A stretch of 64,000 nt of DNA from Schizochytrium sp. TIO01 (taxonomy: Eukaryota; Sar; Bigyra; Thraustochytrida; Thraustochytriidae): assembly GCA_004764695.1 (NCBI GenBank), contig SMSO01000036.1, forward strand, positions 702,001-766,000, written 5' to 3'. This document shows positions 1,479 through 51,765 of the stretch, piece by piece. Both the position numbers and the translations under genes were made by a program. The notes under the pieces were generated by a model. The model did not search any database, was not told the origin of the DNA, and saw only the letters and a list, made by a program, of their open reading frames with translations. Numbering within the stretch: position 1 is the first letter of the stretch; each line of letters begins with the position of its first letter.

Positions 1479-2280
1479 ATTTTTTTGAATAAAAATAAAC
1501 AGATCACTGAAATACTGGAATTGAATTAAATAAAGCATTCGAATTCCATTAATTATTAAATAAAAAAAGAAAGTGATGAATTAATGAATAGCTTTTTATA
1601 TATATTTGTTTTTAATTAATTAAAACATGAAAAAGTAATGTTTGCTTCAATTGCTCATTGTCGATTTAAATAAAGTATATTTTTTAATAATTAAAATAAA
1701 TCCCTCCTCTGTGCTGTACTTGCTGATGGAAATGAAAGCTGCTTTCAAGCTGTGTGGCCGTAGTACATAGAAGTCGCTCCTCAATTTTGCAATTTTGTCT
1801 GCGGAGCACGAAACCTCTCAATCCTCCTCGTCGCCTTGGAGCTCGTGATGTGTTTGCGCTCCTTCCCGCTGTCATCTCAATTCAAAGAAGCACGACACAA
1901 AGCATACGAGGTTAGCTCTGTGCGCAGCGTATGATCCGCATCCCACAAATTTAGACATACTCGCTCGACCCTCAAGAAAGAAAGTAATGATCGACGGTGT
2001 TCATATTTGCTTCTTCTTCTGCTTCTGCTTCTGCTTCCTCGAGGTAATTCTGTCTGCCTGCCCAATCAATTCGACGCGACTGATTGAGATTCCCGTTGCC
2101 AACTCCTCTGCCACAACGGTGGTTTTTTTGAAAGTGATGGACGCAGCATCATTGATCCCTTCGGCGATCAAACTGCTTTCTTTTCCTTCGCTCCCCTTCT
2201 CTTCTCTTTCAATCGCACCGATCGAAGGGACACCCTCCTCGCTTCTCTTCTCTTCTCGTGGATCTTCTTCTACTGCTTTT

Positions 2281-2380
2281 AAAAAGAGAAGAACAGAAAA
2301 GAAAGAAAGAAAGAAAGAAAGAAGGTCTAGCTAGCTAGTACTGCCGCTTACTCACCTGATAGCTGGCTAGCTAGCTAGGT
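2281..2380. repeat. GAAA tract joined to CTAG runs
   Basis: A GAAA purine tract (2,281-2,324) passes directly into a CTAG run (about 2,325-2,339). A second CTAG run follows at 2,366-2,379. CTAG is self-complementary, so the two runs can pair with each other around a spacer of about 25 bases. Confidence 0.8.
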
Positions 2381-2901
2381 CCCTGTGAATGTGGAAAGAA
2401 AGGAAGCTAATCTGGAAGTTCGTGGCGAGGGCAAGCTTCATTTTTGTACATTTCCGAAGCAGGGCCTAGTAATAAAATACCAAGGCCTTTAGCGAAATGG
2501 GACTTTTGGACGGATCACAATGGACGATGGTGTACCTGCACTGTAGCCGTCGCTCACCTTTCCCATGAGAGAGCAGATGAAGAATGCTGCTGGGGAGCCA
2601 GCAGGGGCTCGATGAAAGACACGCGATCTCGCCTTGACCATGGCTTGGCCTCAATGGGTCGATCGATTTATCAATCCAGCAATCCTACTCGCTCACTCGA
2701 TCGACCTCTTTCTTGCCAACTTACTGTAGCTCGGTACCACCAACTTTTAAAGCCTTCTCGTTATCACTGGTCAACTTAGTACTTTTATTTACTAAAATAG
2801 AATTTGTTCAACGAAAGTAAACAAACCTATACTAGCGTGTACACTAAAAGAAAAGAAGAAAACAATTTTATGTCTCGGCGCAAGTCGAATAGCTAAATCC
2901 T

Positions 2902-2977
2902 AAGAAAGAAAGAAAGAAAGAAAAGAAAAGAAAAGAAAAGAAATGAAAAGAAAAGAAAAGAAAAGAAAAGAAGGAAG
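2902..2977. repeat. GAAA to GAAAA graded repeat
   Basis: Starts as (GAAA)n and changes to (GAAAA)n, with one interrupting T. A change from a 4-base to a 5-base unit inside one array suggests slippage growth. Confidence 0.9.
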
Positions 2978-3240
2978 GCGAGTCGTCGTTATTTCGGATT
3001 GATTGATTGTTCACGAGATCTAATCCTCGTTGAGATCAAGTTGTGTCATCATCCTCGTACCAGGTAACAGTAGTGTTAGTGCGGTGCGCAAGCAATCGCC
3101 TTCGTCGACAGAGAGCATTCAACATACATACATACTGAGGCTGCCTTTTCTAGCTTCACCTGACAGTCAGTATTCATTGGGAACCTGACTCTTCTTCTCC
3201 TTGGGCCAATCGTTTTCGAGCACGTATTCGTCCCTCCCTA

Positions 3241-3350
3241 ACAGTCAGTCAGGCAGTAAGTCAATAAGTAAGTAAGTAAGTCAATAAGTAAGTAAGTAAG
3301 TAAGTAAGTAAATAAATAAATAAGTAAATTAGTCAGTAAGTCAGTAAGTT
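3241..3350. repeat. (AAGT)n with CAGT and AAAT variants
   Basis: An array of AAGT units with CAGT and AAAT variant units. The 14-base block reading TCAATAAGTAAGTA occurs twice, so short duplications are layered on slippage. Confidence 0.85.
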
Positions 3351-3907
3351 CCTCGACGAAGAAGAATGAGGCCTGAGTCTTCGGATCGACCCGCACGCAT
3401 TCTTGTAGGAATGAGACTGGTTTGGCGCTGTGGTTATAAGCCTCCTTCGAAAGAAGCGTGGATATAGCGGAGAACGCGTATCGAAGGCAGGCGTGCCTAG
3501 GTAGGGGTAGCGGCTTGGGCTGTTCTACGTGGTGCTGTGAAGGCTTTCCAGACCCGCCTCAACTGTAAGGGAAAGCTGGGAACCTGAACAGGCGGAGGAA
3601 GAGAGACCAAACCAATCAAATGACTTCGCGGAGAGGGGAAATCCGATCCGTTCTGATTCGTCCATTCGCTGAGAAATGGCTTTCAAGGAGAGGTGCAATC
3701 CGACCACTTCCATACTTGTTCGGCAGAAGCCCGCACACAACGCAGGTGTCATCAGCTCCAGGCTTGTTTATTGCTTGCTCATTGCTTGCTCATTGGAATC
3801 GCGGGGGCTTGAGATCTATTTTCGCATGATCATGGAGCTTGGTTTGTTCAAGGAGTTATCTCCTGGATTGTTTTGAAACTATCTTTCTGGAGACGTTAAA
3901 TCAAGAT

Positions 3908-3945
3908 TGTTTGTTTGTTTGTTGGTTTGTTTGGTTTGTTTGTTG
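3908..3945. repeat. (GTTT)n microsatellite
   Basis: GTTT units interrupted by two GG variants. Confidence 0.85.
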
Positions 3946-4115
3946 GGTACAAACTGTTAGGATGATGACGCCCTTTGGCTGCGCCAGTACTTGCAAGTAG
4001 TGCTCAAGTCGCGAATGGAGACGCAAATGACACGAGTGGTTGAAAGTGAAGTAGGGTGGCTGAGGATCGCTGATGCATGCATACATCATGGGTCGTTACA
4101 GGAGGTCTCGACTCG

Positions 4116-4205
4116 CATCATCATCTTCATCATCATCATCTTCATCATCATCATCTTCATCATCATCATCTTCATCATCATCATCTTCATCATTATCTTC
4201 ATCCT
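4116..4205. repeat. ATC-based higher-order minisatellite
   Basis: The basic triplet ATC is organised into a 15-base higher-order unit, TTCATCATCATCATC, repeated about five times in tandem. The forward frame reads as poly-Ser and carries no other coding signal. Confidence 0.85.
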
Positions 4206-4966
4206 CACCACAAACAAAGAAGCAAAGAAGCAAAGAAATCGATCAATTCTTGAATCCTTCCGATTGGGATTCGTTACGAACGAACTACTCGATTCGAAAC
4301 CTCAACTCGAATCGATTTAAACTCAACCCATTCCATTACATTCAATTCCATTCAATTTAGGTCAAGTTTACGCGGTTGAAAGACACGCAACTCATTCATA
4401 GGTCAGTATGGAGAAATCGTGAGAGGTCCTCGACTCATCATCACTCCTCCGCCGGCGCCCAGGACCTGAGAACTCTTCGAGACCGTCTCAAAGCGAGAAC
4501 GGACCACCAACAAACATCGCTTCTTCCTCCGTCTCAGACGCATGCAGTTCTACGCAACGCCAGCGCCAACAGCACTCTCAGCAGACGCGACAAAGGACAG
4601 ACCAGAAACAAAACAAGCAAAACAAAACAAACAGATACGCCAACAATAAGACGCGCGTCCATCAAAGATAACCGGACTTTTCAAACAGCGTCAGCTTCTT
4701 CGAAGCCTGAGGAAAACAAAAATCAAAAGCAAACAAAACAAACTAAGAAAAAGGAAGACAGAGAAGAGAAAGCACACATGCTGTCCCACACACGAAAACA
4801 GCCACCAGCAGAGAGGAACAGAACAGAACAAGCAGCTAGTGGTAGATAGCCGACTGCTAGGCGATCCTGCCAGGAGTGGTTTTTGGAAAGAAGATGGCAG
4901 AAGTGAAAGACAGCGCCGCACGAATGTGAGAGCGCCGCCGCGCTCGCTGCTTCCTGGTGCGTACTA

Positions 4967-31210: not shown

Positions 31211-34200
31211 ATGCTTAGACACGACGATCAACATGGGGAAACGCGGTGGTCATCGCCCACGCCCTCCATGAAAGAGTACTTTCGACCACAAGACTCTAAC
31301 GGAGTAAAGTGGCTGCAGCCAGGTCTTGACAGAATCCGCTCAAATGACCGACGTGCTCAGGAGAAACACTGGCGAGGCCGGAGCCGATTCTTTGAAGCAG
31401 AAGCGAGCCACGCCGCGAGCTTGCCTCCTCGTAGCGCGTGGAAACCCTTAAACTGTTGTGTCCCATTGGAGCTCTTGCTTGAAAACTATAACGTCAAAGT
31501 ACAGCAAGGCCGTCTGCAGCGAGGTATGCTTCTTCATGTGGTCTGGCTTGTGGTTCTCATTACTTTTTTCTTTGCGACCATGGGCGGCAAAGCATCAGCA
31601 CTCATGTTTACAGGATATCAACTCCTTGCGAGCATCGACGCCTCAACATTTGTAACACGATCTTATTTTCGTTTGGGATCATCACAGGAGAGCGATGAGT
31701 TTTTCTCCGCAGAGGAAATTAGCCTTGCGAATTTGCGCCGAATGCAAGATTCAAATGATGATTCCTCTACATCCTCAGAGTGCGACCTTATTGTTTTGTT
31801 ATCAGAGAATGAACTTATCTACAATTATTCGCAGAGAGTTCGTCCATTTGAAACAAATAATTTCCAGGAATATCTTGCGTACTATGCAAATATTCTCGCG
31901 CTTCGTGCATGCCAGCCAAACTCGTCCTCCGGAGTATGTGCATCGAAGTCGTTCCAGAAGCAGCAAAGAAGCACTGTTTTTGAAGGGTCTGAGGCAAGCT
32001 CTTCCTCTTCTTCTTGCCTTGCAGACCCTGCAATGTCAACGCTTGCATTCCCAGATATAAATTTAGTATGTTCTTCTGTTGAACTGGCACCATGGTCAGA
32101 CCTATTCTGCTTCCCTGGCTTTCAGGGTGACATCCAAGAAAGATCAGATGTTCTCAATACCCTGTGGCGAACAGGAGCGTTGTCATCGCCACTTGCAGAC
32201 AATATCACTCTTCATGAAACTCTCGACTCATGTCTCGCTGTGCCATTCGGGGCGCAATCCGGATGTTTTTTAGATATGCATGAATGGCGTAGTTTCTCCT
32301 TAAATACTGCGTTATCAGATGATGACTTTGCTCAACGCATCCAAGGTATCAACTTTACATTACAATTTCAGCATGTGACAGAAACTACGGTAGATCCTCT
32401 CACCTATAAATACACATGGGCTGATCTTAATACGAAAAGTCTAACAACAGCACTCTCTATCGGAAACGTACCACTGACCTCAATGGCAGCTATGCGAATA
32501 TCGTTTCAAGGGAGCCTCACAGGCGCAGTAACAGCCTCGCAACAGGTACTTGTTTATGCTAATCTTAAAATCGCCAAGCCAGATGGAGGTTTGACAGTTG
32601 GTGGTATCATCATGTGTGTAATTGTAGCCCTTGTTGTGACATATATAGCTGTAGATCTTTTTCTACCCCTGGCACTCATCACATGTGCGAGACAAGGGAC
32701 CCGTTCAACACGGTTGAGCCATTACTTTAAGTACTCGTCCCTTTGGAATCTCATGGATCTCGTTCTCCTAATGCTTTATTGCTTCCTTTTAGCCCATATG
32801 GCGCAACATGGTCTTGATACGAGTCATCTATACCCAAACAATATCAATGACGGTTCAACTTGTGCACATGAAAGTTATATTATCAAAATCAACCGAACAA
32901 AGCAAATTGTAGGCCTACTTCTTTTGGCAACCTTTATTCGACTCATGAAGTATATCTCTCTCGTCCCGGCACTCAATATGACATGGCGCGCAATTGTTAA
33001 GGGTTTCTATTACTATTTACCAGCACTTTTGATTTTAGTTGCACTCTGGCTTGTATTTGCCTTTGCAAATCTTATCACGTTGCATAATCACTATGCACAA
33101 TTCAGCAACTATTACGAGGCCCTCCTTTCTGTCATCATCATGCATGTCGATGCAGGAAGCTCTGCCTGGGCATCCCTCATGCACCCTCAGCAGCTTTCCG
33201 GAATGCCATTGGATGTGGCTTCTGATACGGAAGTTCATTTCTTCACCATTTTGTGGATCTTCGAATTTTTTGTTGTCTTTCCATTCACGGCCCTTTCAAT
33301 TTCTGCATTTTATCATGCCATTGTATCAGTAACTGTCGATCACCATCAGAAAAATGAGCAAGCTCGCGCTGACTTCCGTGCCTCGAGGGCTCAAGCTGTG
33401 CTAACCCAACTATATGAAACAAATAATCATGCAATGCTCACATCTCTCAGAGCTGGATCTGGTCATTTCCACCAAAGCCAGCATACCCTGAGTTCTCCAG
33501 AAATTCAGCCTCTGAACCCGTCAACATCTGTACCACCAGGTACACCAGGCCAATCACGGTACCGCGCCGAGGAGGAGGAAGAATACTCTACACGGCTAAA
33601 TAATATCCTTGATACCTATGCGGGGGAAGCTCTACTATCCTCAGAGACACTTGGCAGGCATAATCACGCCAAACCCAAAAGTAAAGGTGCGTTTCATTTT
33701 AATTACCGAAAAACTTGCGCTGCGCTTCACAGAAACATGAGCAAATGTTTTCTGCGCACTAAGCTGTGTTTCCTTAAATCAGAGGCTGCTATCAAAGCAA
33801 CTGCAGACCTTCGAAGACTCCAGAGAAGCCACATTTCGCACAAAGATGCCCTCTACAGGTTGCAAATTTATGCGGCCAGCGCTGAGAATCAGCATAGCGT
33901 GTTCATCAGCTACAATGAAATCGCTGCAGTCATCTCGACTCGTGCCAACGGCAAGCGTAGCTCAGTAACAGAAGACTTGGTCCTTGGAATCATGGATCTT
34001 GTCGGCGCCGGAAATGTGTACTATGAAAACGTAAGGCATCGCCACGAAGGTCGTCGTTATTACCATTTAGTTTCAGGTGGGAACGGTAATAAGCCTTCTG
34101 CGACGGACATTGCTGCTGCAGAGGGCCGTCGCCGGCGTATTACGATCGCTCAATGGCAAGAAGCTTCGTCTGATGCCGTGGATATTCGTGCAATGACCGA

Positions 34201-34342
34201 GAGAATTCATAAACTAGAAGACACTAGTACGATCGCTCTTGGCATCCTAACTCATGATGTACAAACCATTCGAGACCAACAGCATCGCATGCTCAGTAGT
34301 CTTATGAAAATGCGTCACAGCCTCGACAGCATTTCTTCATAA
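31211..34342 (+). CDS. Polycystin-2-like (PKD2/TRPP) cation channel
   Basis: The 1,043-residue product has the layout of the polycystin/TRPP group of cation channels. A basic cytoplasmic N-terminus (1-104) is followed by a first membrane helix (about 105-124). A long loop of about 340 residues with several N-x-S/T sites fits the extracytoplasmic polycystin domain. Five hydrophobic segments follow at about 463-485, 511-532, 565-590, 597-625 and 673-705. The pore-loop candidate is about 630-655, with YYEALLSVIIMHVD just before the last helix, as in PKD2. The C-terminal tail (705-1,043) is hydrophilic and ends in a probable coiled coil (about 990-1,035). The family conducts cations, often Ca2+, in ciliary, ER or plasma membranes. 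Which membrane and ions apply here is not shown. The gene is one exon and starts at the first in-frame ATG. A mucolipin relative is the main alternative. Confidence 0.8.
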   Translation: MLRHDDQHGETRWSSPTPSMKEYFRPQDSNGVKWLQPGLDRIRSNDRRAQEKHWRGRSRFFEAEASHAASLPPRSAWKPLNCCVPLELLLENYNVKVQQGRLQRGMLLHVVWLVVLITFFFATMGGKASALMFTGYQLLASIDASTFVTRSYFRLGSSQESDEFFSAEEISLANLRRMQDSNDDSSTSSECDLIVLLSENELIYNYSQRVRPFETNNFQEYLAYYANILALRACQPNSSSGVCASKSFQKQQRSTVFEGSEASSSSSSCLADPAMSTLAFPDINLVCSSVELAPWSDLFCFPGFQGDIQERSDVLNTLWRTGALSSPLADNITLHETLDSCLAVPFGAQSGCFLDMHEWRSFSLNTALSDDDFAQRIQGINFTLQFQHVTETTVDPLTYKYTWADLNTKSLTTALSIGNVPLTSMAAMRISFQGSLTGAVTASQQVLVYANLKIAKPDGGLTVGGIIMCVIVALVVTYIAVDLFLPLALITCARQGTRSTRLSHYFKYSSLWNLMDLVLLMLYCFLLAHMAQHGLDTSHLYPNNINDGSTCAHESYIIKINRTKQIVGLLLLATFIRLMKYISLVPALNMTWRAIVKGFYYYLPALLILVALWLVFAFANLITLHNHYAQFSNYYEALLSVIIMHVDAGSSAWASLMHPQQLSGMPLDVASDTEVHFFTILWIFEFFVVFPFTALSISAFYHAIVSVTVDHHQKNEQARADFRASRAQAVLTQLYETNNHAMLTSLRAGSGHFHQSQHTLSSPEIQPLNPSTSVPPGTPGQSRYRAEEEEEYSTRLNNILDTYAGEALLSSETLGRHNHAKPKSKGAFHFNYRKTCAALHRNMSKCFLRTKLCFLKSEAAIKATADLRRLQRSHISHKDALYRLQIYAASAENQHSVFISYNEIAAVISTRANGKRSSVTEDLVLGIMDLVGAGNVYYENVRHRHEGRRYYHLVSGGNGNKPSATDIAAAEGRRRRITIAQWQEASSDAVDIRAMTERIHKLEDTSTIALGILTHDVQTIRDQQHRMLSSLMKMRHSLDSISS

Positions 34343-45725: not shown

Positions 45726-47372
45726 TTAGTTCTTCTTTTTGTTTTTCTTCTTGTTATTCTTCTTCTTCTTTGCAGATCCGGGTGCTTTCGAGGCGGCGTC
45801 CATGCTGTCACCAGATGCACCAGCTGTGTTGTTGTTCATCGCTGCAGAGAGGATGCTGGGTCCAGTTTGGTTTCCACGTTGCACAAGACGAGACCTGAAG
45901 ATCTTCTCAACATCGCCTTCCTCTTCAATATCCCACAACGCAAGGGGTCCCTGTCCTGCCGCAGCGAGCATGTACGGCGTATCCGGGTCAAACGCAACGT
46001 CAAAGAGCGGTCCTACGCTCATGGTCTTCTGGCCGATGCATCGTGGTGCTGGCAAGGACTCAAGGTCCCAGAGTTTAACGGACTTGTCCACGGAGCAAGT
46101 GGCCAGCAGGCCCCTGGCCAATGGACTTACGGAGAGCGAGGAGCATGGCTTGCGTGCATGAGCCTGGAAAGTGTACAGAGGGCCGGCGCCTGCGTTGCGG
46201 ACGTCAAAGCAGGTAACTTTTCCGTCTTCGGTGGAGGCGAGGACCTGCTCGGGGCGGTGAGTGTTCCAGATGCAGCTCTCAACGTCGGCGGTGAGTTTCA
46301 TAGAGAGGACCTGCGCGGAGGGACCTGCGTTAGCGTCAAAGACCGCAATGCTCTGGTCGAATGAGCCTGAAAGCAGTACACTGGACTCAACAGGGTTCCA
46401 CGCCACAGATTGGACCTTATCCTTGTGGTGCGTAAAGGTGTGAACACAGGCGTTCTTGCTCATGTCCCAAAGTTTCACGGTCTTGTCCGCCGACGAACTT
46501 GCCAACAGGTTAGGGTGCACACGGTTCCAGTCGAGGCCCATCACGGCATCAGTATGGACAGCACCAGAGGTTGGCGTACCACGGCCCTCTTCGCCCTCAC
46601 GCTTACCAAGCTCCAAAGTTGGCTCGAGGGCATCGATAACATCCAAGTTCCATACCTCAATCACGGGCTTGAAAGTACCCACGCCGATCATGTTGCGCGA
46701 GCCGTTTGAGATGGCATTGCCAAATACCTCAGAACCCGCTCCGATCCATGTTGTCACAAGGGGGAAAGCAGGCATCGGGATATCATGGTGAACGTACATG
46801 CTACCGTCTTCCTCGTCATACAGATAGACCTCCAAGTTGCTGTATTCCTCGTCTGTGTTGGCGACGACAACCACGCGATCTGTTGGCTTGATCATGAGGT
46901 CCTCCGCCTCCTCTTCGTCGTCATCATCGTCGTCATCATTTGCAAAAGCAGGTGGCTTGGCTTTATCCTCGCCATCATCCTCATCCTCATCGTCCTCGTC
47001 TTCGCTCATGTCTTCTAAGCCTTCGATGTCAACATCATCGTTGTCATCGTCCTCGTCTTCGTCGTCCTCCTTGGCAGCCTTACCAACCGCGTCCTCCATG
47101 TGCGCCGCTGCGTGTCCATCTTCGTCCTCCTCGTCGTCATCGGCGGCCCAGTTCAGAGCGTCGTCCTCCTCGCCATAGTCATCCATGCGGAGCTCCGCGG
47201 GGAGGCCATAGCGGTCCTTGCTCTGGTCACCCATGGCAGCATCCTCTCCTCCAGAGCCAGCTTCTGCAGCCTGTGCCCTGCGAATAGCTTCCAGCTCCTC
47301 GGCAGATAGTTCGTACCGGTCAGGCTTGGCCTTTGCCGCACCGCGTGGCACCCAGCTAATGGACGAGATCAT
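45726..47372 (-). CDS. PWP1: Periodic tryptophan protein 1 (PWP1), WD40 ribosome-biogenesis factor
   Basis: 548 residues. The start MISSISWVPRGAAKAKPDRY matches the conserved N-terminus of PWP1, which fixes the start codon. Residues 60-160 hold a long Asp/Glu tract, as in homologues. WD40 repeats follow, for example 272-303 (HTDAVMGLDWN to KTVKLWD), 314-346 (HHKDKVQSVAWN to SIAVFD), and a later one ending DKSVKLWDLE. The end is a Lys/Asn run (KKKKNNKKKNKKKN) typical of nucleolar proteins. PWP1 is a nucleolar factor for pre-60S assembly and rRNA production. The coding region is one exon and is G/C-rich at third positions. The acidic tract is coded by GAT/GAC/GAG triplets and leaves all antisense frames open. 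Confidence 0.95.
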   Translation of the reverse strand: MISSISWVPRGAAKAKPDRYELSAEELEAIRRAQAAEAGSGGEDAAMGDQSKDRYGLPAELRMDDYGEEDDALNWAADDDEEDEDGHAAAHMEDAVGKAAKEDDEDEDDDNDDVDIEGLEDMSEDEDDEDEDDGEDKAKPPAFANDDDDDDDEEEAEDLMIKPTDRVVVVANTDEEYSNLEVYLYDEEDGSMYVHHDIPMPAFPLVTTWIGAGSEVFGNAISNGSRNMIGVGTFKPVIEVWNLDVIDALEPTLELGKREGEEGRGTPTSGAVHTDAVMGLDWNRVHPNLLASSSADKTVKLWDMSKNACVHTFTHHKDKVQSVAWNPVESSVLLSGSFDQSIAVFDANAGPSAQVLSMKLTADVESCIWNTHRPEQVLASTEDGKVTCFDVRNAGAGPLYTFQAHARKPCSSLSVSPLARGLLATCSVDKSVKLWDLESLPAPRCIGQKTMSVGPLFDVAFDPDTPYMLAAAGQGPLALWDIEEEGDVEKIFRSRLVQRGNQTGPSILSAAMNNNTAGASGDSMDAASKAPGSAKKKKNNKKKNKKKN

Positions 47373-48121
47373 CGTATAGGAAAGAAAATGTCTATGGTTC
47401 TGCTATCCTTGTCAGAGAGACGCAATTGGACTGATTGGTACAGTCGCTGTGATTAGTGCTATATATTCGGTTGACGCAACGAATGCGATAAAACCAACGT
47501 GCTGAGGTTGATCTCCAGAAGTTAAGACCTCGGGATGAAGACGGACTCCTGTGTCCTTGTAGCTCCTAAATCTGTGCGGGCAACCAGGGTCGGCTGCTGC
47601 AAGGGAGATCGGCGGCTGCTCTAGGGCAGAGCGAGGACCTCAACTCCCTGTTGGTCCTTCCTTCGAGTGGTGGTGAGGTTTGGTGATCTCCGCGGCGCTT
47701 CACGAGGCCAAGGAGGCTTGCCGCTCGCAGCCAGCCAAGTACTCCGCCTCAATGGGATTGGGTATTAGTATGCTAAATTTATGAGCTACAACTAGTGGTA
47801 GTTCATCAGGTCAATAATAGACTAGCATATGAGATAGGAAGCACAACTAACACTGGTGGTCATAGTATAGTCACTGCATATTATGTGGTCACTATTTCGC
47901 TCTTGATGAAGGAAAATATGGGAGATGAAATGAAAGGCAACAAAACTAGCTAAGAACAAGACTTGGTTAAAGTTGGAGAGATTTATGAAATAGAGGAGAC
48001 GCACCGCCGCGATCTCTGATCGACAGATTCTGTTTAGACAGCGAATTCTAAAGGAAGTGTGGAAACGTCGTTAATGTGAAGATGACGCCACCAGCAATGC
48101 TTGACTTTGCCTAGCTCAGAA
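47373..48121. other. Upstream region of PWP1
   Basis: About 0.75 kb. 47,373-47,750 is GC-balanced and presumably contains the PWP1 promoter and leader on the minus strand. 47,760-48,121 is AT-rich. No gene recognised. Confidence 0.5.
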
Positions 48122-48324
48122 AGCGTCAGAACTTATGCAGCCTCCAAATGGTACGTATTGTGTATTCTATATAAATGATATATTATTTTGGAGGTTAGGT
48201 AAGAAAATGGCACAGCCAAGGAACCACCAAGCTCCGAACACTACAAATGAAGCAAGTGACGATGTTGAGCCCATCTATGGCTGCGGTTTGCTCCAGCGGC
48301 GGCGAGCAGCACAGCACTGATCGT

Positions 48325-48510
48325 ACCATTGTCTACGCCAGAGCGTCCTCCGTCAAACAAAGCGAGAATTTTGCTGATCTCCAGTGTGCCTATCCAGACG
48401 CCTTCGCCATTTACAAAGACATCGGTAGAGGGGCCAGCATCAACAAACCGGTCTTACGCGCCCTGCTGCACTACCGAGATTCGCCACAAACTTTCAGTTT
48501 GGCTCTGTGA
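48325..48510 (+). pseudogene. IS607-type serine recombinase (TnpA) fragment
   Basis: Frame 1 gives TIVYARASSVKQSE, the N-terminal catalytic motif of serine recombinases (Y-A-R-x-S, with the nucleophile position in the two Ser). YPDAFAIYKDIGRGASIN and KPVLRALL follow, matching the D-I-G-S-G-x-x-x-x-R-x-x-L-x-x-L-L pattern of IS607 resolvases. A few residues are missing between KQSE and YPDA, where the family has an R-Q helix. The remaining C-terminal part of the domain is absent: the frame runs into the nuclease remnant and stops at 48,508. It is too short and too damaged to be active. An upstream stretch in another frame (DDVEPIYG, 48,261-48,284) may be the linker that precedes the catalytic domain in intact relatives. 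Confidence 0.75.
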
Positions 48511-48571
48511 AAATTACCGTATTATCCTTTTGCCTAAATCTGAAACCTTGACAAATAATCAAGAAGGATAA
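48482..48571 (+). pseudogene. TnpB/Fanzor RuvC-region fragment
   Basis: Frame 2 reads HKLSVWLCENYRIILLPKSE then a stop at 48,569. This matches the stretch of IS607-type TnpB and Fanzor nucleases in which a helix (H-x-K-x-x-x-x-L-x-x-N-Y) leads to a buried strand (I-I-L-L-P-x-F/S-E-T) in the RuvC fold. Here it joins the resolvase fragment directly, so everything from the nuclease start to this point (several hundred residues in intact relatives) has been deleted. Confidence 0.75.
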
Positions 48572-48596
48572 AAATCAAGACAGCTCGAATAATGTT

Positions 48597-48750
48597 GGCT
48601 TCCGGGAAGTGTCCATTTACAAAGCCGAGCTTCTCCTGTCAGTAGTGTAAACTAGTTACTTGCCGAGATCATCGCACTTCAAAACCATGCAGTAATGTGG
48701 TAACATCAACAACAAGCTCGGAACATCCAAGGTTTTCAAAAGCCCCCCTC
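48597..48750 (+). pseudogene. TnpB/Fanzor zinc-ribbon fragment, frameshifted
   Basis: Frame 3 gives FREVSIYKAELLL (48,600-48,638), like the F-R-x-x-L-x-x-K-A-E helix before the zinc ribbon. Frame 1 then gives TSKPCSN (48,676-48,696), equivalent to the Y-T-S-K-T-C-S-x-C-G motif. Frame 3 resumes with CGNINNKLGTSKVFKS (48,696-48,743), the rest of the ribbon. One lost base between TSKPCSN and CGNI explains the frame change. The second Cys pair is damaged: the first of the pair reads Ser and the next is not found. Zinc ribbons of exactly this form are diagnostic for TnpB-family nucleases. Confidence 0.82.
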
Positions 48751-48781
48751 CCCAAAAAATGAAAATAAAAATAATAGATAT

Positions 48782-48856
48782 AAACACGTAGCCGATTGCG
48801 ATGCCCATGTCGCCAGAGGCATCCTTTTGCGCTACCTATCCAAGGACATGATCTAA
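48782..48856 (+). pseudogene. TnpB/Fanzor C-terminal (RuvC-III) fragment
   Basis: Frame 2 reads KHVADCDAHVARGILLRYL and ends at a TAA (48,854-48,856). It corresponds to the C-terminal A-D-R-D-x-N-G-A-R-N-I-L-L-R-Y-L block, in which an Asp is the third RuvC catalytic residue. Both Asp residues survive, but the Asn residues have changed (N to H/V, N to G). The preceding 30 bases (A-rich) have lost the second half of the zinc ribbon. Confidence 0.82.
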
Positions 48857-51765
48857 GAGTTGTCTTTGAGTCACGGGTGAGTTTTAACCCGAGATTGGGT
48901 CTTAACCCCACGTCACCATAGGAAATGCAAGTTTTGCAAATTTAATAGGTTAAATTTTAGATGTACTTTGTTTTGTCCTCCCCATGATTATGTTCTTTCT
49001 TTTAGTCTTAGGATTTCCGTTCTCTATGAACAATTGCTGGTTACAAAGAGTAGTCTGCCTAACTATAAAAATTCATTGTACAGTACAACCAATAGATCTC
49101 TGGCTGGTCAATCAAATTGCTTTGTGAATATGCAGCAGCATGTCGGCGCTTCCTGCACATATACTAGAATTTTATATATAGCGTAATCAAATAGCCCCAG
49201 ATCAAGCAATCTTGTCGTTGCCAGTGAACATTCTTAAGCAAACTCTGAAACTAGGTGCACTTACTCACTCAAGTTGCTCACGGCTATCCAATCGCACGAT
49301 GCGCATCAAGGTATTTCCATGACATTCATATTCTTTCTTTCCGATCAATCATATCGTTGCACATAACCAACTACAGATGACCCGTGGTCCTTGTGTTGTG
49401 AAAGGGTAATTTTTGCACTTCTTGCGCGAATGCTTCATTGCACTGCAAAAAACGCTAAGCTCTTGCTTGCACACGATGCCGATGCTCTTCTCCTCTTCCT
49501 TGCCATAGTCGCAGTAGGCACTAGGAACTAGTAAACTATTTTGAGTGATGACTTGAGTTTCTACTCCAAAAGAAAATCAAATGATTTAGTGGAGTGGCCT
49601 CTAACGAGAGTAGTAGCTTTAGCTTAGTATATTAAAGTTCTATAGAGTTTACGTTTCAAGTACACAGTAAGTATGTACCTATATATCAGGAACTCGGTGT
49701 GGTCTTCCTCGAGAACCAGCCAATCTCAGTTCCAAGGTCCACTTCCATGCTAGCATATTATATAGTGTATACGCTATACAAGCGTGAGGGAAAAGGAGAA
49801 AAAGAGGCAGCAGTGGGGACACCTGAGGAGAGTCAAAAATTATTTCCATTGGACATGAGAGCAGAGGTTGTGGTTGGAGACTTTTTTAACAAACGGGTAG
49901 GAAGGGGCAGAAATAAATATCTAGCCCGTGCTGCAGCTGATATAGAATCACTACTCTATGTAGGGATATGTCCAATGCTGGTGAATTACTCACGTTGGAA
50001 TTAAGCAGTAAATATCGATGTAGTTTGTGGTCCACGGGGCATCCAAATATTTTATTTCATGGAGCAACCGAAATTAATTGTACAAAGATTTGTAGTGTAT
50101 TGCTCTGAAAATTAATTGCTGCTCTTTGCTCTTGACTTCACACATTCTGGACATTCTTCCGCGTCCGATTTCGTGATCGAATCTCATATCTTAATCTCTT
50201 CTCTATGCTAATTCTTTTACAAACTTTCATCAATTATTTCTGCCAGTAGGTTTTTACATTCTATGTATTTCTTGATTTGTACCTCACATTTGCGATGCCT
50301 CCACTAGACTATAGATTATGTGTTCATTAAACTTGCTCAATCCTTTACTCTGTGCACTGTGTTGCCATAGCACCACTAGGTTCTGTTCGCTAAGCCTTCC
50401 CAGAACCGGCTTCTGTTACTGCCACGATGTGTTATGTCAACCCTTAATCCTTGCTTCTTAAGTGATGCTGCTCCATATTTGTCGAGTGTTCATTCTCTTC
50501 TCTCAAGTTGTCAATCCTTCAGAGTTCCATTCATAGGAGGAAATGTGATTTTTCCCTTCCTCTACCTTTCTGATGTTTCAAAGCTTCCTATGCTTTTGCA
50601 TAGGCAGATGTGCACCTGCAACAACCTAAGTAAGTACCTAAGGATAGGTGGTCCCTACTGTTTAATTAAAAATCGCAAAGAATGAAACAAGAACCAGAAT
50701 TACGAAGATAATGTAGGTACTGGAATCGCTCCCAATTCTTTCATCCAACCCAGGCATATGAATGGCCGCCGTTAGACTCATATGTCGGCCTTTCTTTAGT
50801 TTCCCTTAGATGGAGCTACGCTATGCCACCCAATTCAATCACAGACGAAGGAGCATCTCCACAGCGGAATCTGCGCCAAGCGTTCCTTTCTTTCAATACT
50901 ACTGGTAGACTTTCTATTTCACTATTTCATTTCATTTCAAAAAAAGAAAAAGGATTAAAATACCTAGGCCTATTAAGTGCCTACTATGCATTTCTATTGG
51001 CTCTTGCAAAGTAGAAAGAAAGGTAAAATAAATTACCTTGGAGCAATAGTTAGTAAGTAGGTATGTACTTACTAGTAGTAGCGTTGAGAGTACCTAGGTT
51101 CCGTGGTGTTAGTAGGCATTAGGTGGGGCTTAGCGATAGTTCTCATTGGAGGGTTCTGCCTAGAGTGTCCTAGAGGTGACTAGCGCCCCTCTTAGCTCCG
51201 CCATTGACTCGCACAGCCACCCAGACAGGCGCTCAAAAGCGCATTGGCGGCAGAGACCTTTGTTTGTGGGCCTCTTGCTGAAGCTGCGCGGAAGGCCGCG
51301 GCAGACAGGCAGGTGGAGGCAAGCAGAGAAAGGTGCCCTGCTGGTGCTCGATCTCTGAGACACCCTACGAGGTAGGCCAACGACTGGCTTGCTCCAGTTA
51401 ATCTGTCTGGCTGGCGTATAAACCCTGCTCGTCAAAAAACTGCATACATACAAATATTCTTATATCCATACGCAGATTCACCGAGTTGGCTTGAAGTACG
51501 ATCAGGTGATATCAAACAAGGACGGACCCTTGATTTTGGGATCTGTCTCTGATTACTTTGCTAGCTAATTTCCTCGATTTTATCATTCGGTTCGTTGATC
51601 AAATTTGATACAAGGATCGCTTTTCGTTCGAGATCATTCAAATTTAATTCGATCAAAACAACACAAGGCTTTCAATATCTCACTCCCAACAACAGTTTGT
51701 AGTAAACTTTCAAGTCTTTGGGTGAAGCCACATATTTAAAGCTAAAAAGTTTCGTTACGTTCACC
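48857..51765. other. Intergenic region transposon remnant / midasin
   Basis: About 2.9 kb, mostly AT-rich. A plus-strand frame at 49,699-50,004 (101 aa from a GTG) is free of repeats but matches no family I know. The patch at 51,170-51,420 is GC-richer with no recognised gene. The final few hundred bases (51,470-51,765) must include the midasin promoter and leader. No tRNA or snRNA recognised. Confidence 0.5.

Follow-up and report, generated by a model that had tools for sequence, protein, structure and literature searches.

The closest described counterparts of the locus reported here are the ghost copies of Fanzor-bearing transposons and the IS607 elements that carry a Fanzor2 gene. In Spizellomyces punctatus, 134 ghost loci of Spu-1 have been described (Saito et al, 2023; PMC10432273), and the ghost wRNAs are reported there to support the activity of the Fanzor (PMC10432273). 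A figure legend of the same study places ghost loci also in G. theta, N. lovaniensis and M. mercenaria (PMC10432273); as characterised in that account, Spu-1 has no transposase, and GtFz1, NlovFz2 and MmeFz2 have no clear transposase association (PMC10432273). In TnpB and Fanzor systems the 3' tail is described as the scaffold of the guide RNA, with the flanking DNA beyond it acting as the guide (PMC10432273; PMC10711439), and recombination at a dinucleotide is described for IS607 (PMC10711439). The DPG motif and a displaced RuvC2 glutamate are given as fingerprints of Fanzor proteins, held in common with mostly cyanobacterial pro-Fanzor relatives (Yoon et al, 2023; PMC10711439). Neither “thraustochytri-” nor “Aurantiochytrium” occurs in the main text of the study that describes IS607-Fanzor2 elements (Bao and Jurka, 2013; PMC3627910), and in the literature searched, outside which most subscription papers lie, we found no paper that treats Fanzor together with a thraustochytrid.

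The window analysed here is a 64-kb stretch within contig C35 of a protist genome of 64.06 Mb in 37 contigs. It contains, on the + strand at 48,106–48,963, a relic of 0.86 kb, which is very probably an old member of a non-autonomous (mini or ghost) family that arose from an IS607-type transposon, multiplied in trans and then decayed neutrally. An earlier note, made from the letters alone, had recognised here a decayed IS607-Fanzor element spanning 48,122–48,856. The peptide segments that it named were all located at this place and on this strand; the locus was right, and the element proved longer, its right part being an RNA-like 3' tail. The identification as an IS607-Fanzor relic in a protist genome was borne out by frameshift-tolerant tblastn searches beyond the level of shuffled sequence and by the match of an intact relative's TnpA to the IS607 model (see below). 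When the TnpA and Fanzor proteins of that intact copy (L009) were compared with the whole window, both found their best matches at this locus. TnpA scored 58.9 bits at 48,292–48,468, with two further pieces upstream at 48,207–48,299 (joint E 5e-15), and Fanzor scored 66.2 bits at 48,473–48,853 (E 6e-14); the top scores in 100 dinucleotide-preserving shuffles were 26.2 and 29.3 bits, respectively. DNA comparison of the relic with eight intact-type loci gave E-values down to 1e-34. As the note had also anticipated, the interval 47,373–49,698 is free of any ORF of at least 100 aa, so that ORF-based annotation would miss the relic.

The relic opens with the non-coding left end of the mini-element (48,106–48,206, +). 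This stretch can be aligned to the left end in many of 20 other mini copies in the genome but not in every one; L042, L045 and L048 fit poorly there. The left terminal dinucleotide is placed at 48,106–48,107 (+), where we infer the exact first base, and between 48,189 and 48,255 the relic is 87% identical to intact L009. A frameshifted remnant of the 5' half of tnpA, the gene for the IS607 serine recombinase, follows at 48,207–48,468 (+) and runs from the start of the HTH through YARASS to LRALL. The resolvase segment reported earlier lies within it, and the TnpA start region at 48,207–48,255 was additionally found; the first half of TnpA is all that the window copy retains. Alignment with the other copies places a window-private deletion of ~95 bp at 48,255/48,256 (+). 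Comparison with L009 and the 21 copies, the window included, sets the junction of a common ~1.2-kb internal deletion at 48,469–48,473 (+), where the middle of tnpA meets the C-terminal part of Fanzor. The order noted before, a TnpA segment followed by Fanzor segments, is thus seen, and their adjacency is due to this common deletion.

The Fanzor remnant (48,473–48,856, +), likewise frameshifted, comprises WLCENYRIILLPK, the zinc-finger start TSKPC, GTSKVFK and VADCDAHVARGILLRYLSKDMI with a stop, and is interrupted at approximately 48,745–48,775 (+) by an A-rich insertion of ~26 bp that is private to the window in the alignment with the 20 other copies. The nuclease gene as such is absent from the relic: about the last 120 codons persist as the remnant, the RuvC1 part with the DPG motif is deleted, and the RuvC2 glutamate (Ealt) is absent from the window copy, where CRDHRTSKPC has an aspartate in this position, followed by a break in the frame. 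The 3' tail, with three predicted hairpins reminiscent of a guide-RNA (wRNA) scaffold, and the right end occupy 48,847–48,963 (+), as delimited by a covariance model hit, and the place of the right terminal dinucleotide TG is 48,962–48,963 (+). The left neighbour of the relic is an ORF for a WD40 protein (45,726–47,372, −). The window has genes of eukaryotic type (WD40/EML-like, serine carboxypeptidase, polycystin-like), and its GC in 2-kb steps ranges from 0.38 to 0.55, in keeping with the 45.01% of Aurantiochytrium sp. TWZ-97 (PMC12258536). The ORF at 31,211–34,342 encodes 1,043 aa and matches the polycystin channel family (PF08016, 23.8 bits, cut-off 22.4).

The intact copies for which a search of the same genome had been proposed do exist. 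Genome-wide, 34 places match the zinc-finger family PF07282 at E ≤ 0.001 and 28 match the Resolvase family at E ≤ 0.01. Of 20 loci examined from the Pfam-based search (L009–L028), 18 (L009–L025 and L027) belong to one 2.2-kb family about 88–99% identical to L009, with the left end missing in L011; of the other two, L026 is a full-length relic, decayed and more distantly related, and L028 is a mini copy. A genome search with the L009 Fanzor, which returned 100 match rows from 87 scored of 337 candidates, revealed frames open over all 492 codons and 90–100% identical to L009 at at least 14 places. The TnpA frame reaches its normal end in 10 of the 18 full-type copies, and both frames are open in eight. 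The TnpA of L009 (232 aa) matches the IS607 transposase model NF033518 (transpos_IS607) with 144.9 bits, where the cut-off is 110. Its Fanzor, of 492 aa from the likely ATG, matches PF07282 with 51 bits and PF12323 with 38 bits, and scores 95.8 bits with the guided-TnpB model NF040570, just below the cut-off of 100. The RuvC1 DPG motif is present (IALDPGVRSF), and the RuvC2 glutamate stands six residues ahead of the zinc finger (QESYTSKTC), a glutamate common to L052–L054. The TnpA and Fanzor frames overlap inside one 2.2-kb element, which is the Fanzor2 arrangement, an IS607 element with its TnpA. The overlapping frames of L009 lie at 2,270–2,968 and 2,310–4,250. The Fanzor frame is also open upstream of the likely ATG through nearly all of tnpA (646–662 codons), perhaps as a side effect of codon use in tnpA.

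Outside the overlap with tnpA, the Fanzor part of 14 copies has a mean dN of 0.028 and a mean dS of 0.087, a ratio of 0.32 in a sample chosen for open frames and hence with some bias toward low ratios; within the overlap the ratio is 0.97. Judged from these substitution patterns, the intact Fanzor is under purifying selection. Five copies (L012, L013, L015, L017 and L021) have one premature TnpA stop in common and an open Fanzor frame (dN/dS 0.35), and because of this combination a subfamily with dead TnpA and open Fanzor seems to have multiplied. Three of these (L013, L015 and L017) also have in common an insertion of ~295 bp inside tnpA.

The full copies align to one right end (...TCTAAGAG), and their left end starts near ACAAAA; the flanks are unrelated. 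No inverted repeats joining the tips were found in the three full copies searched. L010 has a weak subterminal inverted pair (23 nt, 78%), and end-to-end match scores in seven copies were 9–12 against a shuffle mean of 6.9 and a shuffle maximum of 12. In the search for target duplications, the longest word common to both flanks near the junctions was 3 nt or none in eight of 11 copies, 5 nt in two and 8 nt in one. As far as these alignments tell, the element has neither a terminal inverted repeat nor a target duplication, as is characteristic of IS607. One insertion can be compared with an unfilled homologue. In L022 (603–1,943, −, element orientation) a young full copy lies within an older inverted relic, in which more of the middle survives than in the minis. 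Relative to the mini consensus, a homologous sequence and not the exact pre-insertion site, the unfilled site carries one CT (AG in element orientation) and the filled site AG at both ends, which, for this one full copy and not for the window copy, fits the insertion of IS607 at a matching dinucleotide. In 12 of 17 copies a CAG lies no more than 9 nt from the left end, as against 0.115 of 9-nt background windows; in TnpB terms, such a CAG-bearing left flank may correspond to a target-adjacent motif. The minis have a blurred left end, and their terminal dinucleotide is no more than suggestive.

How the window copy came to lack its middle is the point at which the explanations part. The earlier note had it as a decayed copy of the element, and it is decayed and frameshifted; the middle, however, was not lost on the spot. 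When the relic was used as a DNA query against the genome, 40 of 238 candidates were scored, the window among these, and the longer matches were colinear with most of the relic at about 68–76%. The 20 other places examined, on 10 contigs, were chosen for likeness to the window, so their share is uninformative on other families. In the window and in all 20 relatives the stretch corresponding to L009 ~2,680–3,860 is missing: the TnpA match ends at L009 2,616–2,679 and the Fanzor match starts at 3,863–3,900 in 19 of the 21 copies, the exceptions being L044 (4,015) and L051 (3,981). The net deletion against L009 is 1,189–1,241 bp over all 21 and exactly 1,194 bp in eight, including the window. L028, found independently through the Pfam search, has the same mini form, with one unbroken match to mini positions 85–966. 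A 30-mer across the junction occurs, with up to three mismatches, at 22 genome places (reversed control 0), the more diverged window copy not being among them. That a single full-length copy instead lost its middle and decayed in place is suggested by the window-private indels and by other full-length copies decaying elsewhere, as seen in the many Fanzor match rows with stops. Independent deletions would not have common breakpoints, so this reading is contradicted by the one deletion in 20 of 20 copies on 10 contigs and by the 22 junction places, and we rejected it as highly improbable. Chance resemblance is further still from plausible, and we give it and bacterial contamination, in favour of which nothing was found, practically no weight: the 100 shuffles stayed far below the real scores, which rules out a chance match, the control patterns for the junction 30-mer and for the hairpin-3 29-mer described below found nothing, and copies stand on many long contigs, with eukaryotic-type genes in the window itself. 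Since the deletion is common to all 20 relatives, the window copy descends from a mini-element that was amplified as such. Its family has the composition of a ghost or non-autonomous family, namely several copies with common ends and one internal deletion and no intact gene. In the majority sequence of the minis, tnpA is frameshifted and the Fanzor part contains shifts of its own, from which it follows that the family was already gene-less when it multiplied.

A second question is what the 3' tail did in the spread of the minis. The last ~115 bases fold into three predicted hairpins, and relative to shuffled sequence the predicted fold reached z values of -4.5 and -6.0 in two full copies and -2.8 and -2.4 in two minis; the fold of the window tail was no better than that of shuffles (z -1.1). 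A covariance model for which 18 full-family copies alone were used had its sole window hit at the tail (48.2 bits, E 3e-9). Run on the 20 minis, it matched 17 (E ≤ 1), 15 of them at E ≤ 0.01, and missed L041, L047 and L048. The hairpin-3 29-mer, with up to three mismatches, occurs at 72 genome places (control 0), among them the window and 16 places with the sequence of the young full family. The minis may have retained the tail solely as the end to which the transposase binds, with Fanzor and guide RNA having no part in the spread, and this deserves a substantial chance, though short of an even one. Retention of both ends is common to all non-autonomous transposons, and conservation of the structure in the minis is expected from inheritance: 80% of cells keep the pairing of the stem model, as against 29–43% when the model is slid, and covariation is weak, with double changes in 10 pairs (shuffle mean 6.7, with 10 reached by 38 of 500 shuffles) and in 6 to 11 pairs in slid versions of the model. 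Tails of full copies showed no double changes, and RNAalifold on the mixed alignment A1 returned fragments only. Covariation was tried as proof of a tail RNA and found weak. As the pairs hold with few double changes, the tail structure is clearly inherited, and it may or may not be under selection. What argues against a binding end only is that the consensus of the mini lineage, about 25% diverged from the intact lineage, retains the three hairpins, and that hairpin 2, by eye, differs in sequence between subfamilies and still pairs, with no double change in the alignment count. The tail may have been, or may still be, used as a guide RNA.

The divergence of the minis is consistent with an old, non-autonomous family. 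The 21 copies differ from their majority sequence by 12.1–20.5%, the window by 13.0%. In the tnpA remnant, substitutions in the 21 copies amount to 0.130 per site at the first, 0.129 at the second and 0.148 at the third codon position, and three Fanzor segments have 0.10–0.12 at position 3 and 0.14–0.15 at position 1. One Fanzor segment of 23 codons is free of stops in all 21 copies, with a frame-breaking length there in eight. Going by these rates, the minis diverged without coding constraint. A coding role for the mini, as a truncated TnpA that acts as a repressor, was considered and is not supported, given the consensus frameshift, the stop after the HTH and the about equal divergence of codon positions. 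We also considered whether L026 was the minis' autonomous parent. Compared with L009, it is nearer to the mini consensus over the right half (84% against 76%) but not over the left (75% against 78%), and would therefore be only a possible relic of the lost autonomous partner. L026 spans about 2,242–4,224, and a second tail lies on the other strand just to its left (2,138–2,275). In L016 (1,497–2,115, −) and L025 (4,425–5,156, +; both in element orientation), young full copies sit beside old minis, and these two minis have a second internal deletion in common (mini positions 397|631), a smaller deletion class.

The mechanism that we propose for the non-autonomous family starts from an autonomous 2.2-kb element, which would encode TnpA, a serine recombinase acting at a matching dinucleotide (AG), and, overlapping tnpA in another frame, a Fanzor2 nuclease, followed by the structured 3' tail that ends at the right end. 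TnpA would recognise both ends and move the element through dinucleotide recombination. Fanzor, with the RNA of the tail and a guide from the flank, would cut the matching empty site, and repair would restore the copy, as proposed from what published TnpB and Fanzor work describes (PMC10432273; PMC10711439). A derivative would then have lost ~1.2 kb, amounting to the second half of tnpA and the greater part of Fanzor, and acquired a frameshift in tnpA, with both ends and the tail kept; because these were kept, it could have borrowed both proteins. It would have multiplied in trans, then stopped and decayed neutrally. Mobilisation of the minis in trans by TnpA is the most likely route; none of the 21 differs from the consensus by less than 12%, and so we infer it from copy number alone. 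We offer as an improbable extension a layered and still selected system, in which Fanzor from about 14 intact copies would be loaded with their own guides and with the tails of dozens of minis, and the minis, together with the TnpA-dead Fanzor copies, would form a shared guide repertoire.

Among solved structures, the best relative of the L009 Fanzor is the TnpB-like protein L79 (PDB 9b0l, E 3.7e-19), which we take to be a Mimivirus protein; it differs in being viral, and the best stretch covers only residues 284–483 of 492. Single-protein scans of viral contigs found no relatives. Alignment scans of viral contigs gave 53 Fanzor/TnpB loci (23–49% in best segments), with TnpA in 10 viral-contig loci (31–44%), and the best phage record reached 32.9%. 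From genome contigs, 80 of 308 confirmed Fanzor/TnpB loci were kept (26–44% in best segments); 74 of the 80 are cyanobacterial by their titles, a count biased by the one cyanobacterial and one cyanophage row in the query alignment. Six IMG/VR contigs carry an IS607-type TnpA and a Fanzor/TnpB relative, in the locus pairs L109/L092, L111/L089, L112/L074, L113/L056, L116/L085, L117/L064 and L118/L096. In trees of 56 rows each, the protist proteins stand on long branches (3.29 changes per column for Fanzor and 1.85 for TnpA), and for the Fanzor tree treekit warned of long-branch joining; the trees hold no eukaryotic or named giant-virus rows; they do not place the protist proteins or discriminate between the bacterial and the viral route of entry that the note had offered. 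A Capsid_NCLDV scan was silent on all 25 virus records, and equally so on the controls, so that it carries no information.

Taken alone, the relic is a fossil, and its value is as a pointer to a complete set. This one protist genome appears to hold a recombinase, a selected Fanzor, multiplied TnpA-dead copies and old gene-less copies with guide-like tails, and such a set bears on the question of what role Fanzors have for eukaryotic transposons. If the host is a thraustochytrid, as it seems to be, genetic tools exist for its relatives, which would make it directly testable whether Fanzor helps an IS607 element to persist. If a shared guide repertoire were real, a serine recombinase, a nuclease and ghosts could be tested together in one eukaryote. 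Elsewhere in the genome, C4:591,651–617,209 carries genes like those of PUFA synthase, among them a PfaA-like gene that, in context, exceeds the cut-off of its family; close by, on the opposite strand, lies a second long ORF with a ketosynthase. Such an arrangement marks thraustochytrids, and the host is probably one of them.

Set beside the described systems, the intact element resembles the cyanobacterial pro-Fanzor TnpBs of IS607 elements in the DPG of RuvC1, the displaced RuvC2 glutamate and the IS607 TnpA partner, as far as these are characterised in the published account (PMC10711439); those TnpBs are only 26–44% identical to the protist Fanzor in best segments. The minis share with the Spu-1 ghosts, as these are described, short copies that have transposon ends and a wRNA region (here a predicted one) without a Fanzor gene, and the presence of full copies in the same genome. 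Spu-1, however, is given as a Fanzor1 system with inverted repeats and without a transposase, whereas the element here carries Fanzor2 in an IS607 transposon with its own serine recombinase and tips without inverted repeats. In contrast to the Spu-1 ghosts as described, the minis arose by internal deletion and retain parts of both genes. In the combination of a serine recombinase with Fanzor2 and in the reported lack of terminal inverted repeats and target duplications, the element resembles ACa-1 and ACa-2 of Acanthamoeba, ISvMimi_1 and ISvMimi_2, and ISvAR158_1 (Bao and Jurka, 2013; PMC3627910); compared with the IS607-Fanzor2 elements as that study presents them, it occurs here in many near-identical copies and is accompanied by a mini family.
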